From positions 491,832 through 555,831 of the forward strand of contig JANQRA010000002.1 in the NCBI GenBank assembly GCA_028284765.1: a stretch of 64,000 nt of DNA, given 5' to 3'. A model generated the notes under the pieces. That model worked only from the letters and a program-made list of their open reading frames with translations. It was not told the origin of the DNA and did no database searches. Shown here piece by piece: positions 49,077 to 54,414 of the stretch (position 1 is the stretch's first letter; every line of letters begins with the position of its first letter). The DNA comes from Acidimicrobiia bacterium (GTDB lineage: Bacteria > Actinomycetota > Acidimicrobiia > Spongiisociales > ZC4RG35). The translations under genes were made by a program, and so were the position numbers.

Positions 49077-50690
49077 ATGAACTCCTTCGAAGTCGCCAAG
49101 TGGAGCGAGCTCCCAGACCGCAAGCCGGTTGGTGCGCTGGTTGGCAACGTGGACCTCGTGATCGTGAAGTGGGACGAGAACCATTCGGTGATGTATGGAA
49201 GATGCCTTCACCGGGGTGCGCATCTCGCCGACGGTCATATCGACGGCGTGAATCTGATCTGCGGTGTTCATGGGTGGGACTACGTGTTCATGACCGGCGT
49301 CTCGTCCTACAACAACGACGAGCGGCTCCACAAGTTCGCATCTTGGGTCGACGGTGACTCTCTGATGGTCGACGTGGAAGAGATTGAGCGATGGGAGAAG
49401 GAGAACCCTCAGCCCTACGATCGACTCGCCTACCAGGGCGCATACCAGGACCCGCACGGGACGCCTGAAGAGCCACATGTCGGTCTGATACGCCGGCTCG
49501 CGGATGAGGGCCTCGAATACCTGGGTCATCACGGGCCCATTTCCTCGATGGGTGTGCCGCGCCAAGAACTGCCCCTTTGGGACGACATCCAATTCCTGAC
49601 GGCTCAGCTCGCCAAACGACCACTGCTCGACGACGCACCGGTCGGAACCGACGTGACCATCGGCTCGGCGGCCCGCCGCCCGCTGCAGCTGGACATCCCC
49701 CTCTTCGTCTCCGACATGAGCTTTGGAGCACTATCACTCGAAGCCAAGGTGGCGCTGGCAAAAGGCGCCGAGATGGCCGGTACTGGCATCGCTTCCGGGG
49801 AGGGAGGCATGCTGCCGGAAGAGCAGGCAGAAAACAGTCGCTACTTCTATGAGTACGCGTCAGGAAAGTTCGGCTTCTCCTGGGACAAACTCGACCTGGT
49901 ACAAGCGTTCCATTTCAAGTTGGGCCAAGGAGCCAAGACCGGCACCGGCGGCCATCTCCCAGCATCCAAAGTCACGGTGAAAATCGCGGACGTCAGGGGA
50001 CTCGAAGCTGGAGAAGACGCTATCTCTCCTTCGACATTCGAGGACTTCAAGAGCATCCAAGACTTCAAGGACTTTGCGACAGAGGTGCGCACCCGTACCG
50101 ACGGGATACCGATCGGCGTCAAGATGTCAGCCCAGCACATCGAAGCCGACCTCGACGCTGCCTTCGAAATCGGGGTGGACTACGTGATCCTCGATGGTCG
50201 TGGCGGAGGCACTGGAGCAGCCCCTGTCCTGTTCCGCGACCACATCTCCGTACCTACGATCCCCGCCCTGGTTCGTGCCCGTCGACACTTAGATCGAAGC
50301 GGATACAAGCAAGTGAGCCTGGTGGTGACTGGCGGTCTCAGAACCCACACCGACTTCGTGAAGGCACTGGCCCTTGGGGCAGATGCCGTCGCTGTCTCCA
50401 ACTCGGCGATGCAAGCGATCGGATGTCTGGGGATGCGCGCCTGCTCAACCAACAACTGCCCGGTTGGGATCGCGACGCAAAAAGAACACCTTCGAGAACG
50501 ACTCCCAGTCGACGAGGCCGCGGCGAGGTTGAGCCGCTACTTCGAAGCGACAGTCGCGCTCATGCAGGTTTTGTCTCGGGCCATGGGCCACTCCCATCTC
50601 AACCAGTTCTCCATCGATGACCTCACGACGTTCAAGCGAGACATGGCTCACCTGACGGGTATCAGCTACGGAGGCGTTGACCTCAACTGA
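49077..50690 (+). CDS. Rieske domain fused to FMN-binding glutamate-synthase-like domain
   Basis: 537 residues. Residues 1-110 are a Rieske 2Fe-2S domain with CLHRGAHL near residue 43 and CGVHGWDY near 62 (CxH and CxxH). Residues about 140-520 match the FMN barrel of the large glutamate synthase subunit: SDMSFGALS near 214, GEGGMLPEE near 241, GRGGGTGAAP near 377 and a cysteine cluster CSTNNCPVGIAT near 458 for a 3Fe-4S-type centre. The glutaminase domain is absent, so it is unlikely to use glutamine directly. An electron-transfer reductase role is inferred. ATG 49077 lies 6 nt after TAGGTT. Confidence 0.86.
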   Translation: MNSFEVAKWSELPDRKPVGALVGNVDLVIVKWDENHSVMYGRCLHRGAHLADGHIDGVNLICGVHGWDYVFMTGVSSYNNDERLHKFASWVDGDSLMVDVEEIERWEKENPQPYDRLAYQGAYQDPHGTPEEPHVGLIRRLADEGLEYLGHHGPISSMGVPRQELPLWDDIQFLTAQLAKRPLLDDAPVGTDVTIGSAARRPLQLDIPLFVSDMSFGALSLEAKVALAKGAEMAGTGIASGEGGMLPEEQAENSRYFYEYASGKFGFSWDKLDLVQAFHFKLGQGAKTGTGGHLPASKVTVKIADVRGLEAGEDAISPSTFEDFKSIQDFKDFATEVRTRTDGIPIGVKMSAQHIEADLDAAFEIGVDYVILDGRGGGTGAAPVLFRDHISVPTIPALVRARRHLDRSGYKQVSLVVTGGLRTHTDFVKALALGADAVAVSNSAMQAIGCLGMRACSTNNCPVGIATQKEHLRERLPVDEAAARLSRYFEATVALMQVLSRAMGHSHLNQFSIDDLTTFKRDMAHLTGISYGGVDLN

Positions 50691-50716
50691 ACGTGGCTAC
50701 ATACCCTCGCACTAGA

Positions 50717-50766
50717 GAAACCCGGGGTTCATACCGCCACATGTGGCGGTATGAATCCCGGGTTTC
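50717..50766 (+). terminator. 24-bp hairpin terminator
   Basis: Arms at 50717-50740 and 50743-50766 pair over 24 positions; the only non-Watson-Crick pair is a G-T that is a wobble in plus-strand RNA. It lies 27 bp after the glutamate-synthase-like gene and 21 bp before the end of the opposing gene. Confidence 0.75.
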
Positions 50767-50786
50767 GTTGCTTGGTTGGCTTGGAG

Positions 50787-51656
50787 CTAGTGGTCTTTGC
50801 CTTCACCGCCACCGGTGTGGACAAACTCGAACACCTTCTTGTGCCCGAACTTGTCAGTCACGTAGACAGCGAATACTTCGTCGACCGGAGCGCCTTCGAA
50901 GATCACCTTGATCTCCCACTCACCGTGCTCACCGATCTCGGCGACGCCGCCGCCGTATTTCGATTCGATGAAGATCAGTGATCCTGGCTTCCCGGTGCCC
51001 CAGAAGACGTCGTATGGGGTTTCTTCACCGCACTCGCCGTAGAGCTGCTTGGCCGAGAACTCCCATTCGGCAGGCTTCTCATCCTTGGGCTTCTCCTCTT
51101 TTGGCTTCTCGTCCTTCGGAGGCTCAACCTTCGGCTTCGGAGCCTTGTAGATCACGTTGACTGTGTCGCTGCCAACGTTGCCAGCCTCGTCCTTGGCCTT
51201 GATGGTGACCTTGTTCTCACCCTTTTGCAGGATGAGGACGATTCGCCAGTCACCCTCTTCGTTGACGTCGGCTTCATACTTGCCTGCGTACACCTTGGCG
51301 CCAGGCTCCGTCCTGCCTTCGAATACGACTTCCCTCTTCTCGAAGACCTGACCATCTTCAGGATGGAGGATCTCGATCTCAGGAGGTGTGTCGTCGACAG
51401 GCTCCTTCTCGACGGGTTCCTCGACCGGTTCTTTGTCGGCCTCTACCCGAACTTCCTTCTTCTCGGGAAGCTCATCTGGTTCGAGCATCCCCTTGGGAAG
51501 GGGCTCGAACTCGATTGGCTCGACGACCTTCTTCTCCTCAGCTGCCACGGGTTCGGCATCGACCTTCCCATCGTCTGAGGATCCGGCCAGCGCAAACGCT
51601 GTCCCCGCCAACGCGATCACTGCCGTACTTATCAGCAGCGAGATCCATCTCCGCAT
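50787..51656 (-). CDS. secreted protein with Ig-like and partner domains (paralogue of 52316-53224)
   Basis: 289 residues. A signal peptide or anchor covers about 5-25 (WISLLISTAVIALAGTAFALA). An acidic Glu/Lys/Pro linker (about 30-90) leads to an Ig-like domain (IEILHPEDGQVF ... AGNVGSDTVNVIY, about 95-170). A Lys/Pro/Glu repeat linker follows (KPKEEKPKDEKP), then a second beta-rich domain (FSAKQLYGEC ... VYVTDKFG). Both domains align with those of the sigma-partner protein. ATG 51656 has AAGGAG at 6 nt. The likely sigma-dependent promoter is at 51709-51735. Confidence 0.8.
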   Translation of the reverse strand: MRRWISLLISTAVIALAGTAFALAGSSDDGKVDAEPVAAEEKKVVEPIEFEPLPKGMLEPDELPEKKEVRVEADKEPVEEPVEKEPVDDTPPEIEILHPEDGQVFEKREVVFEGRTEPGAKVYAGKYEADVNEEGDWRIVLILQKGENKVTIKAKDEAGNVGSDTVNVIYKAPKPKVEPPKDEKPKEEKPKDEKPAEWEFSAKQLYGECGEETPYDVFWGTGKPGSLIFIESKYGGGVAEIGEHGEWEIKVIFEGAPVDEVFAVYVTDKFGHKKVFEFVHTGGGEGKDH

Positions 51657-51708
51657 CTTCAACTCCTTGCCTGGTTCACAGGCCCCCCAATGCCCATCCC
51701 GCCGGTAA

Positions 51709-51772
51709 CACGCCCTGGGCGTCAAAAAGGTTTACGACCACTCAGGTAAACCACAGAACGTGCCGATTCGTG
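51709..51772. promoter_or_regulatory. mirror-image pair of putative ECF sigma promoters
   Basis: Plus strand: GTAAACC at 51746-51752, 16 nt, CGTG at 51769-51772, then GTG start 51780. Minus strand: GTAAACC at 51735-51729, 16 nt, CGTG at 51712-51709, then ATG 51656. The two -35 boxes also form the inverted repeat GGTTTAC-N10-GTAAACC at 51729-51752. Same box, spacer and -10 on both strands between a sigma gene and its paralogous partner. Confidence 0.6.
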
Positions 51773-51779
51773 TGATGTC

Positions 51780-52319
51780 GTGACCGCCGAAACCAAACCG
51801 GAGCCAATACGCCGGGATAAGGAGTTGAAAGCGAGCCATGAGTCATTCGAGAGCTTCTATCAGAGGGAGTTCCGAAATGTCGTGGGGCTCGCCTTCGCCC
51901 TGTCCGGAAGCCGGTTGGGAGCGGAAGACCTGGCTCAGGAAGCATTCATCAAGGCGCACGAACGTTGGGACAAGATCAGTGGCTACGACAAGCCTGGAGC
52001 ATGGGTGCGTCGCGTGGTCTCCAACCTCGCCGTCTCCGGCTTCCGACGTAAGTCTGCTGAGCGAAAGGCCGTCGCCCGTCTCGCCGGACAACGACCTACG
52101 GGAATCGCGGAGATGGAACCCGAGGACGAGCAGTTCTGGCAGATGGTGCGCGACCTCCCGAAACGACAGGCCCAGGCGACGGCACTCTTCTACATCGAGG
52201 ACCGTTCAGTCGCTGAGATCGCCGAGATCCTCGAGTGCAGTCCGGCAACAGCCAAGGTGCACCTCCATCGCGGTCGACAGTCACTTGCCTCGAAACTGGT
52301 CATGGAGGTGAGCGAGTGA
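51780..52319 (+). CDS. ECF-type RNA polymerase sigma factor
   Basis: 179 residues. Region 2 spans about 24-95 (FYQREFRNVVGLAFALSG, then AEDLAQEAFIKAHERWDKI) and region 4 spans about 120-175 (LPKRQAQATALFYIEDRSVAEIAEILECSPATAKVHLHRGRQ). It directs transcription of a small regulon in response to an envelope signal in most relatives. GTG 51780 is placed 7 nt after a CGTG -10, so the message may be leaderless. Its stop overlaps the start of the membrane partner gene (GTGA), the usual arrangement for a sigma and its regulator. Confidence 0.92.
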   Translation: MTAETKPEPIRRDKELKASHESFESFYQREFRNVVGLAFALSGSRLGAEDLAQEAFIKAHERWDKISGYDKPGAWVRRVVSNLAVSGFRRKSAERKAVARLAGQRPTGIAEMEPEDEQFWQMVRDLPKRQAQATALFYIEDRSVAEIAEILECSPATAKVHLHRGRQSLASKLVMEVSE

Positions 52320-53224
52320 GCCGCGACCTCGACACAAGGGCTCGCCGGGCAGCGGAGAGCCTGACCCAGGCAGTAGATGCTGCGGAGTTCACCGTGAACT
52401 CGCCGGCAGCAGTCAAGACGCGACGGCCCCTAGTCGCCGTCCTGCGGCCTGCCATCGCCATGGCCCTGCTGATGATTGGCGCAGCGGTCGGCGGTGCGTT
52501 GGTCACAGACTCGGACTCCGAGCAGACGCCGGTACCCACGACCGTGCCACTCGTCCCGACCAGTCTCGCCGAGACCACACCTTCGGAACCCGAGCCGGCA
52601 CCACCGACTACGGCATACGTTCCCCCAACGACCGCGACTACAACGGCGCCAACCACGACCGTCGCATCCGACCTCGAGGCCCCGTTCATCGAGATCACCT
52701 CGCCGGAAGAAGGGGCCGAGTTCGAGGAGAAAACGATCGCTTTTGAAGGAGTCACTGAGCCTGGAGCCAAGGTTGCAGCTGGGCGGTGGGAAGCGGATGT
52801 CGATGACTCCGGAAATTGGCGGATCGTGCTGGTCCTGAGCGAAGGCAAGAACACCGCACGTTTCACCGCAACGGACGAAGCTGGAAACTCTTCGGAAGCC
52901 ACGGTGACGGTCTTCTATGTACCTGCACCCGAGACGACCACGACGACAATCGAAGAGAAAGAGCACGAGTTCAGCGCGTTCGCAACCTTTGGCTCGTGTT
53001 CTGAGACCCCTCCGTACGACATCTACTACGGGACCGGCAAACCGGGAACCGTGATCCAAATCACGTCCGACTATGGGTCTGGGTCGGTGGAGGTCAGTGA
53101 GAACGGCGAGTGGGAGAAGAAGGTTGTCTTCGAAACTGCTCCACCTGACAAGGCGTTCTTGGTGAAGGTCGCTGATGAGTTCGGCAACAGCAAGAAGTTC
53201 GAAATGATCTACCAACCGGCGTAG
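52316..53224 (+). CDS. membrane protein with Ig-like extracellular domains, probable sigma-factor partner
   Basis: 302 residues. A cytoplasmic N-terminus of about 45 residues without a recognisable ZAS zinc motif is followed by one membrane helix (about 43-66) and a Thr/Pro-rich stalk (to about 122). Two external domains follow: an Ig-like domain (FIEITSPEEGAEF ... NSSEATVTVFY, about 125-205) and a second beta-rich domain (FSAFATFGSC ... VKVADEFG, about 220-300). GTG 52316 overlaps the sigma stop. It may act as an anti-sigma factor with a sensor outside, although the short N-terminus shows no known anti-sigma domain. Confidence 0.82.
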   Translation: MSRDLDTRARRAAESLTQAVDAAEFTVNSPAAVKTRRPLVAVLRPAIAMALLMIGAAVGGALVTDSDSEQTPVPTTVPLVPTSLAETTPSEPEPAPPTTAYVPPTTATTTAPTTTVASDLEAPFIEITSPEEGAEFEEKTIAFEGVTEPGAKVAAGRWEADVDDSGNWRIVLVLSEGKNTARFTATDEAGNSSEATVTVFYVPAPETTTTTIEEKEHEFSAFATFGSCSETPPYDIYYGTGKPGTVIQITSDYGSGSVEVSENGEWEKKVVFETAPPDKAFLVKVADEFGNSKKFEMIYQPA

Positions 53225-53275
53225 AGCCTTGCGCCGGAACCCCAGGTACGGCGAAGCCACCAATCCGAGCGAAGG

Positions 53276-53289
53276 TACGGTCAGTCACC
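53276..53289 (+). promoter_or_regulatory. putative -10 element
   Basis: TACGGT at 53276-53281, 8 nt before GTG 53290; no Shine-Dalgarno. Confidence 0.3.
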
Positions 53290-54414
53290 GTGGAGCTCAA
53301 CGCCAACGTTTTGAACCGAACGACAATGCGTCGCCAACTCCTCTACGAGCGTGCCGAGATCTCGGCCCTCGATGCGACAGCCCAGGTCGTCGCGTTGCAG
53401 GCCCAGAATCCGATGTCTCCCTACATCGCATTGTGGAACCGGGTGGCCTCGTTCACACCTGCCGAGGTAGACGACTCGCTTAAGGACGGCCGACTCGTCA
53501 AGGCGACGGCTATGCGCATCACTCTCCACCTGATGACCGGACCCGATCACATGGCGTTCAGGGCAGCCATGCTTCCGTCGCTCCGAGCTGCAGGCTTCTA
53601 CGACCGACGCTTCAAAGAGTTGGCCATGACCGTCGACGAAGCCGATGCCCTGCTTCCCGGCCTATCTGAATTCACATCAACACCCCGAACCCGACCCGAA
53701 ATCGAGGAGTACCTCTCTCGAGTCCTCGGCGGCGAACCGCCAGCCGGACTCTGGCGTGCTCTCAGGTTCTCAGCACCCTGGCGCTATTCCCCAGGAGACC
53801 ATCCGTGGGGGTTCGGAGATCCAGCCCAGTTCGTAGCGACCGAGTCTGTCGAGACCCAGGCCGGTGAAGGGCTCAAGCGACTCGTGCGCGGCTACCTGGG
53901 AGCCTTCGGACCGGCGAAGGTTCGCGACATCGCTCAATTCACACTGCTCACCACCGATCCGATCAGATCCACACTCGACGAACTGGGAGACGAGGTGGTC
54001 TGGTACGGCGACCAGCGATCTGGATTCGTCGATCTCGTCGATGGCGGATTCAGCGATGGGGGCGAATCGCCGCCACCGAGGCTTCTCGGGATGTGGGACA
54101 GCGTCCTGCTCGCATATGCCGATCGAAGCCGGGTGATCCCTGAGGACGTCCGCAAGCTCGTGATCCGACGCAATGGCGACGTCCTTCCGACCGTCTTAGT
54201 CGACGGATACGTAGGCGGTGTCTGGAGACCGACCGAGAACGGGATTGAGATCTCGTCGTTGAATGATTGGCCTCCGCAAGTGTGGGACCAAGTAGAAGAA
54301 GAGGCCATCAGCCTCTGGGAACTGATCAGCGGGCGCGACCCGTGGGCGTATCGCCGGCACTACCGGTGGTGGGACCAGATCGCAGCCATCAAGACTCGAA
54401 GACTCGCGGGATAG
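53290..54414 (+). CDS. winged-helix DNA-binding protein of the AlkZ/YcaQ-like (HTH_42) superfamily
   Basis: 374 residues. The N-terminal MRRQLLYERA helix and the VVALQAQNPMSPYIALWNR segment near residue 34 contain the QxQ motif used by AlkZ-type DNA glycosylases that remove bulky or crosslinked bases. Later parts (RITLHLMTGPDH, KVRDIAQFT, LPTVLVDGYVGGVWR) fit the same superfamily. Glycosylase activity is inferred from the motif only; some relatives have no known activity. It lies directly downstream of the sigma-factor module with a separate putative -10. Confidence 0.82.
   Translation: MELNANVLNRTTMRRQLLYERAEISALDATAQVVALQAQNPMSPYIALWNRVASFTPAEVDDSLKDGRLVKATAMRITLHLMTGPDHMAFRAAMLPSLRAAGFYDRRFKELAMTVDEADALLPGLSEFTSTPRTRPEIEEYLSRVLGGEPPAGLWRALRFSAPWRYSPGDHPWGFGDPAQFVATESVETQAGEGLKRLVRGYLGAFGPAKVRDIAQFTLLTTDPIRSTLDELGDEVVWYGDQRSGFVDLVDGGFSDGGESPPPRLLGMWDSVLLAYADRSRVIPEDVRKLVIRRNGDVLPTVLVDGYVGGVWRPTENGIEISSLNDWPPQVWDQVEEEAISLWELISGRDPWAYRRHYRWWDQIAAIKTRRLAG

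Follow-up and report, generated by a model that had tools for sequence, protein, structure and literature searches.

Most ECF sigma operons are autoregulated, a property from which their promoter boxes are routinely deduced (review PMC8103513). Two described systems are of particular relevance here. ECF41 sigma factors have the promoter TGTCACA-N16-CGTC before the sigma gene and before one conserved neighbour, the COE gene; in some cases the two genes diverge and each has its own promoter, and no target other than the neighbour is detectable (PMC3426412). In the autoregulated sigma-I/RsgI systems of Clostridium thermocellum, the overlapping anti-sigma gene encodes an outside domain that resembles one of the sigma factor's targets, as exemplified by the GH10 domain of RsgI6 and Xyn10D (PMC4711584). 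In the literature, we found nothing relevant on ECF promoters of the GTAAAC type or on ECF systems in Acidimicrobiia.

The locus described here lies in a stretch of 64,000 nucleotides from an Acidimicrobiia bacterium (the window, i.e. the whole stretch of DNA that was analysed), and its features are listed in Table 1. We estimate at about 90% the probability that the gap between two divergent genes holds two back-to-back promoters read by the sigma factor encoded at 51780, one serving the operon of the sigma factor and its membrane partner and the other a secreted copy of the partner's outer part, and that these make up essentially the whole regulon. Since both promoters have been conserved across an uncultured order of Acidimicrobiia, the recognition sequence of an unstudied sigma factor and an almost complete list of its targets would be readable from the DNA alone.

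Table 1. Coordinates of the sigma locus in the window; promoter elements are predicted.
Feature	Position	Strand	Size or sequence	Basis or remark
Secreted paralogue gene	50787..51656	-	289 aa	Signal-peptide-like N-terminus plus the partner's two beta domains
-10 box, paralogue promoter	51705..51712	-	CGTGTTAC	CGTG at 51712-51709; sequence and 45-site alignment
-35 box, paralogue promoter	51729..51735	-	GTAAACC	Sequence match
Spacer between both -35 boxes	51736..51745		10 bp, GACCACTCAG	Nearly identical in G017 and G004
-35 box, sigma operon promoter	51746..51752	+	GTAAACC	Sequence match
-10 box, sigma operon promoter	51769..51775	+	CGTGTGA	CGTG at 51769-51772; sequence and 45-site alignment
Gap			123 bp	Between paralogue ATG 51656 (-) and sigma GTG 51780 (+)
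ECF sigma gene	51780..52319	+	179 aa	GTG start; sigma2 and sigma4 only
Putative anti-sigma membrane protein gene	52316..53224	+		Shares 4 nt with the end of the sigma gene

In both promoters, GTAAACC and CGTG are separated by exactly 16 nt. An earlier sequence-only reading of this DNA had placed this motif on each strand of the gap, directed outward to the two start codons, and it was exact in position and sequence. The 2.9-Mb genome contains only two exact matches to GTAAACC-N16-CGTG, both in the gap. When spacers of N15-N17 were allowed, we found five matches in the whole genome and four with a reversed control pattern; therefore, a lone match proves little. From the off-target rate (about one to two background matches per spacing per genome), the chance of two outward matches was estimated at the order of 1e-9 for a given gap and below 1e-6 over all divergent gaps, which agrees with the earlier statement that identical boxes and spacing are unlikely to arise by chance. 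The main proof of the predicted promoter pair is the comparison among genomes, not the rarity of the motif.

The sigma GTG lies 7 nt downstream of the -10 CGTG in the window genome and also in G017. Transcription is thus predicted to start at about the GTG, giving a sigma mRNA with no leader or almost none, unless the start codon is further on; longer leaders are predicted in the relatives. The sigma-side -10 stretch, CTGCCGATTCGTGTGA, was found exactly or nearly so in G000, G017 and G004. On the other side, 52 nt separate CGTG from the paralogue ATG, which is directly preceded by AAGGAG. With no more than 10 bp between the two -35 boxes, two holoenzymes may compete for them. Rfam gave no match at the locus. 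We also observed the sequence CCGAT at 51763-51767, just 5′ of the sigma-side -10 box. It was common in the sigma-gene promoters of the 45-site alignment and rare in the paralogue promoters, and perhaps it additionally tunes promoter strength or timing.

The earlier reading had staked its case on the motif being present upstream of orthologous sigma genes. We found RTAAACC-N16/17-CGWG at 31 sigma loci of relatives, 34-132 nt 5′ of the matched coding region; these loci include some near-identical species, so that the counts overstate independence. Nearly all orthologous sigma genes had the box upstream, among them members of other families and genera within the order. An alignment of 45 sites revealed a fuller box, RTAAACC-N16/17-CGWGTNAC, which reads RTAAACCt-N15/16-CGWGTNAC when the t after the -35 element is included. 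Beyond CGWG, T was present in all 45 sites, A two bases on in 42 and C in 34. The sites had been gathered by the RTAAACC pattern, and the T, A and C after CGWG were absent from that pattern and are therefore independent evidence. The core of the proposed recognition sequence is supported, but GTAAACC-N16-CGTG was not complete: the box is longer, and relatives have CGAG besides CGTG and N17 besides N16.

Across 60 genomes, RTAAACC-N16/17-CGWGTNA matched 38 sites, compared with one for the reversed pattern. Thirty of them were located at a sigma or paralogue gene, three at related ECF genes and five elsewhere, and genomes with the full system usually had exactly two sites each. A slightly longer pattern, applied to a sample of 198 genomes of the class, gave 31 sites against five in the control; 27 were at sigma or paralogue genes, and all were inside the order except those of G091, which were one sequence occurring twice. 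Every site in five genomes that were not used for motif definition (G099, G145, G149, G153 and G164) preceded a sigma orthologue or a paralogue.

The GGTTTAC/GTAAACC pair in the gap is also a perfect 7-bp inverted repeat with arms 10 nt apart, and this interval is conserved in G017 and G004. It could be taken as an operator for a dimeric repressor or activator between two ordinary divergent promoters, which we consider very improbable. The distance from arm to arm varies widely in relatives, whereas the distance from each arm to CGWGTNA is constant at 16-17 nt. Moreover, single arms with a downstream CGWGTNA occur at unlinked genes, and a crude scan of 50600-53400 gave no sigma-70-like promoter. 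Because the arm distance is not conserved, we reject the operator in favour of two promoters.

The box follows the paralogue to other positions. At 11 loci, the paralogue is divergent and has its own outward box. The box was retained where the paralogue was relocated about 10 kb away (G035, G042, G049 and G055) or lay on another contig (G003, G034 and G056), and it was also found at unlinked or distant paralogue loci in G149, G153 and G164. Between the sigma and paralogue promoters, -10 type and spacer agreed (CGTG/CGTG, CGAG/CGAG, N17/N17) in 16 of the 17 tabulated loci, although this is supporting evidence only, since the tree contains just two to three independent changes. The sigma-side -10 is CGAT in G034, and the two -10 boxes of L125 are not alike. 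A search for sigma residues that track CGTG or CGAG was dropped because the independent changes were too few.

Five genomes (G011, G012, G013, G016 and G027) have the paralogue without a close sigma orthologue or a second two-domain module. On the paralogue side of the tree, these five group together as a single clade with a support of 99. The box was absent 5′ of the paralogue in all four of these genomes with a readable upstream region, that of G027 being cut by a contig end; incomplete assemblies weaken any single case of sigma loss. Linkage, co-occurrence and this parallel loss, taken together, lead us to infer that the 51780 sigma factor reads both promoters.

The promoters might be of real ECF type but be read mainly by another ECF sigma factor, or by several with overlapping specificities. 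The window genome holds 14 matches to the sigma protein, and related ECF genes in G021, G026 and G027 carry the same box, so a relative could in principle read the gap promoters. We regard a different main reader as improbable, because the three nearest ECF genes of the window genome have different boxes and because the paralogue box is missing where this sigma factor and its partner are absent.

A self-regulating sigma factor with a small dedicated regulon, as first proposed, is supported by the counts in the window genome. With one mismatch, the extended box matched just one genomic place besides the two gap sites. With up to two mismatches it gave 68 matches (95 for the reversed control), and the first box gave 523 (596 for the control). 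Neither of these looser scans exceeded its control in the window genome, so no further targets can be named.

In Pfam, Sigma70_r2 (PF04542) and Sigma70_r4_2 (PF08281) were both above cut-off over the 179 aa of the sigma protein. It has the sigma2 and sigma4 regions alone, as in group IV, and it stops about six residues past region 4, with no large C-terminal extension of the ECF41 kind. Also as in group IV, a predicted promoter with an AAC-type -35 and a CGT-type -10 precedes its own gene and is kept in orthologues. The closest NCBIfam model, SigE-fam_strep (TIGR02983), scored 125.1 bits, below its cut-off of 141.55, so that the protein is a distant relative and not a member by that rule. The nearest named relatives were Acidimicrobiia metagenome genomes. 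The three nearest ECF genes of the window genome (G000), L231 (C13), L232 (C5) and L233 (C18), are preceded by GTACGCG..CGTGTTA, GTCAGAC..CGAGTAA and CTAAACC..CGTTGA, respectively. These promoter-like boxes have the layout of the gap promoters with changed -35 letters and would represent a family of diverged specificities.

The overlap between the sigma and partner genes was kept in nearly all orthologous loci. The partner has a predicted cytoplasmic helix (residues 3-22) and a transmembrane segment (44-62), followed by a Thr/Pro linker and two beta domains: a glucodextranase-B-like Ig domain and a C-terminal one of about 85 aa that has no Pfam match. The class I anti-sigma domain (ASDI) is a cytoplasmic domain of about four helices, with or without Hx3Cx2C (PMC7406223). 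By that definition the partner does not qualify, its cytoplasmic part being one short predicted helix; Pfam recognised no anti-sigma domain in it, and no Hx3Cx2C precedes the transmembrane segment. Operon structure and topology suggest that it is nevertheless an anti-sigma factor. At its N-terminus (52316-52450), we noted a conserved LDxRARxA motif in the short helix before the transmembrane segment, without a Pfam match. It is possible that this helix is an undescribed minimal anti-sigma domain.

The divergent gene had been called a secreted paralogue in the sequence-only reading. Its product does appear to be secreted, but it is a paralogue not of the sigma factor but of the partner's extracellular half, to which it is 51% identical (E 2.7e-51). 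In a tree, the partners' extracellular modules and the secreted paralogues separated cleanly, though the support of the dividing branch is weak (61); the pattern is consistent with a single duplication that preceded the divergence of the sampled genera. Near this gene, we observed an almost perfect 23-bp hairpin at 50717-50767 (-48.6 kcal/mol, z -8.7), which lies between convergent genes. It has no T run, and its arms occur nowhere else in the window; it may act as a bidirectional terminator or else be a repeat element. The gene at 49077-50690 encodes a Rieske domain fused to a glutamate synthase-like domain.

In the circuit that we propose, the partner would hold the sigma factor at the membrane until a signal at its Ig-like sensor domains frees it. 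The freed sigma factor would then amplify its own operon and flood the exterior with a soluble sensor-domain protein. If the secreted copy works on the ligand or surface structure to which the sensor responds, it may feed back on the signal. A sigma factor, a membrane partner and a secreted copy of the sensor pose the question of whether the signal is damped, relayed or reported. We consider it less likely than not, though plausible, that the dedicated output is a soluble, secreted duplicate of the anti-sigma factor's sensor which tunes the circuit from the outside, either as a decoy or by diffusing as a signal, possibly across neighbouring cells.

With the same promoters and the same sigma factor, the paralogue could instead be an effector, such as a surface or matrix protein or a polysaccharide binder, that is monitored by the homologous domain of the partner. 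We give this somewhat less than an even chance. In a fold search that covered mostly domain 1, this domain matched the glucodextranase B domain (Z 13.2, 1.7 A over 83 residues, 29% identity), and other matches included the Ig-like repeats of adhesins. Some relatives (L226, L227, L237, L238 and L239) have paralogues with three tandem C-terminal beta domains. In C. thermocellum, the sensor domain of RsgI6 and Xyn10D, a target of sigma-I6, share 57% identity (PMC4711584). However, we recognised neither a catalytic domain nor a wall anchor or known ligand-binding site in the paralogue, and a shared fold shows no function.

Whichever role the secreted copy has, the predicted pair of promoters read by one sigma factor can be compared with known systems. 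Like canonical ECF/anti-sigma operons, the locus has an AAC-containing -35, a CG-type -10 and a spacer of about 16, together with a sigma factor of sigma2 and sigma4 only and a membrane partner that is predicted to be co-transcribed (PMC8103513). It differs from them in the single short cytoplasmic helix without a recognised anti-sigma domain and in the predicted regulon of nearly a single target. Among ECF sigma factors that are autoregulated and have one dedicated neighbour as target, with promoters on both sides, ECF41 is the nearest precedent. In ECF41 proteins, however, a regulatory domain is fused to the C-terminus, an anti-sigma factor is not obvious and the target is an enzyme, whereas here we found a minimal sigma factor, a membrane partner, another -35 box and a predicted target that duplicates the outer domains of the partner. 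The ECF41 -35 box TGTCACA does not occur in the gap; RTAAACC was present in 45 of 45 aligned sites, which had been collected by that pattern. Sigma-I/RsgI is the closest precedent for an anti-sigma sensor that resembles the target protein. It belongs to another sigma class with other boxes and many enzyme targets, while the present system would have one target, which is no enzyme and in which the whole extracellular module is duplicated. The new element is thus a predicted target that duplicates the presumed sensor.
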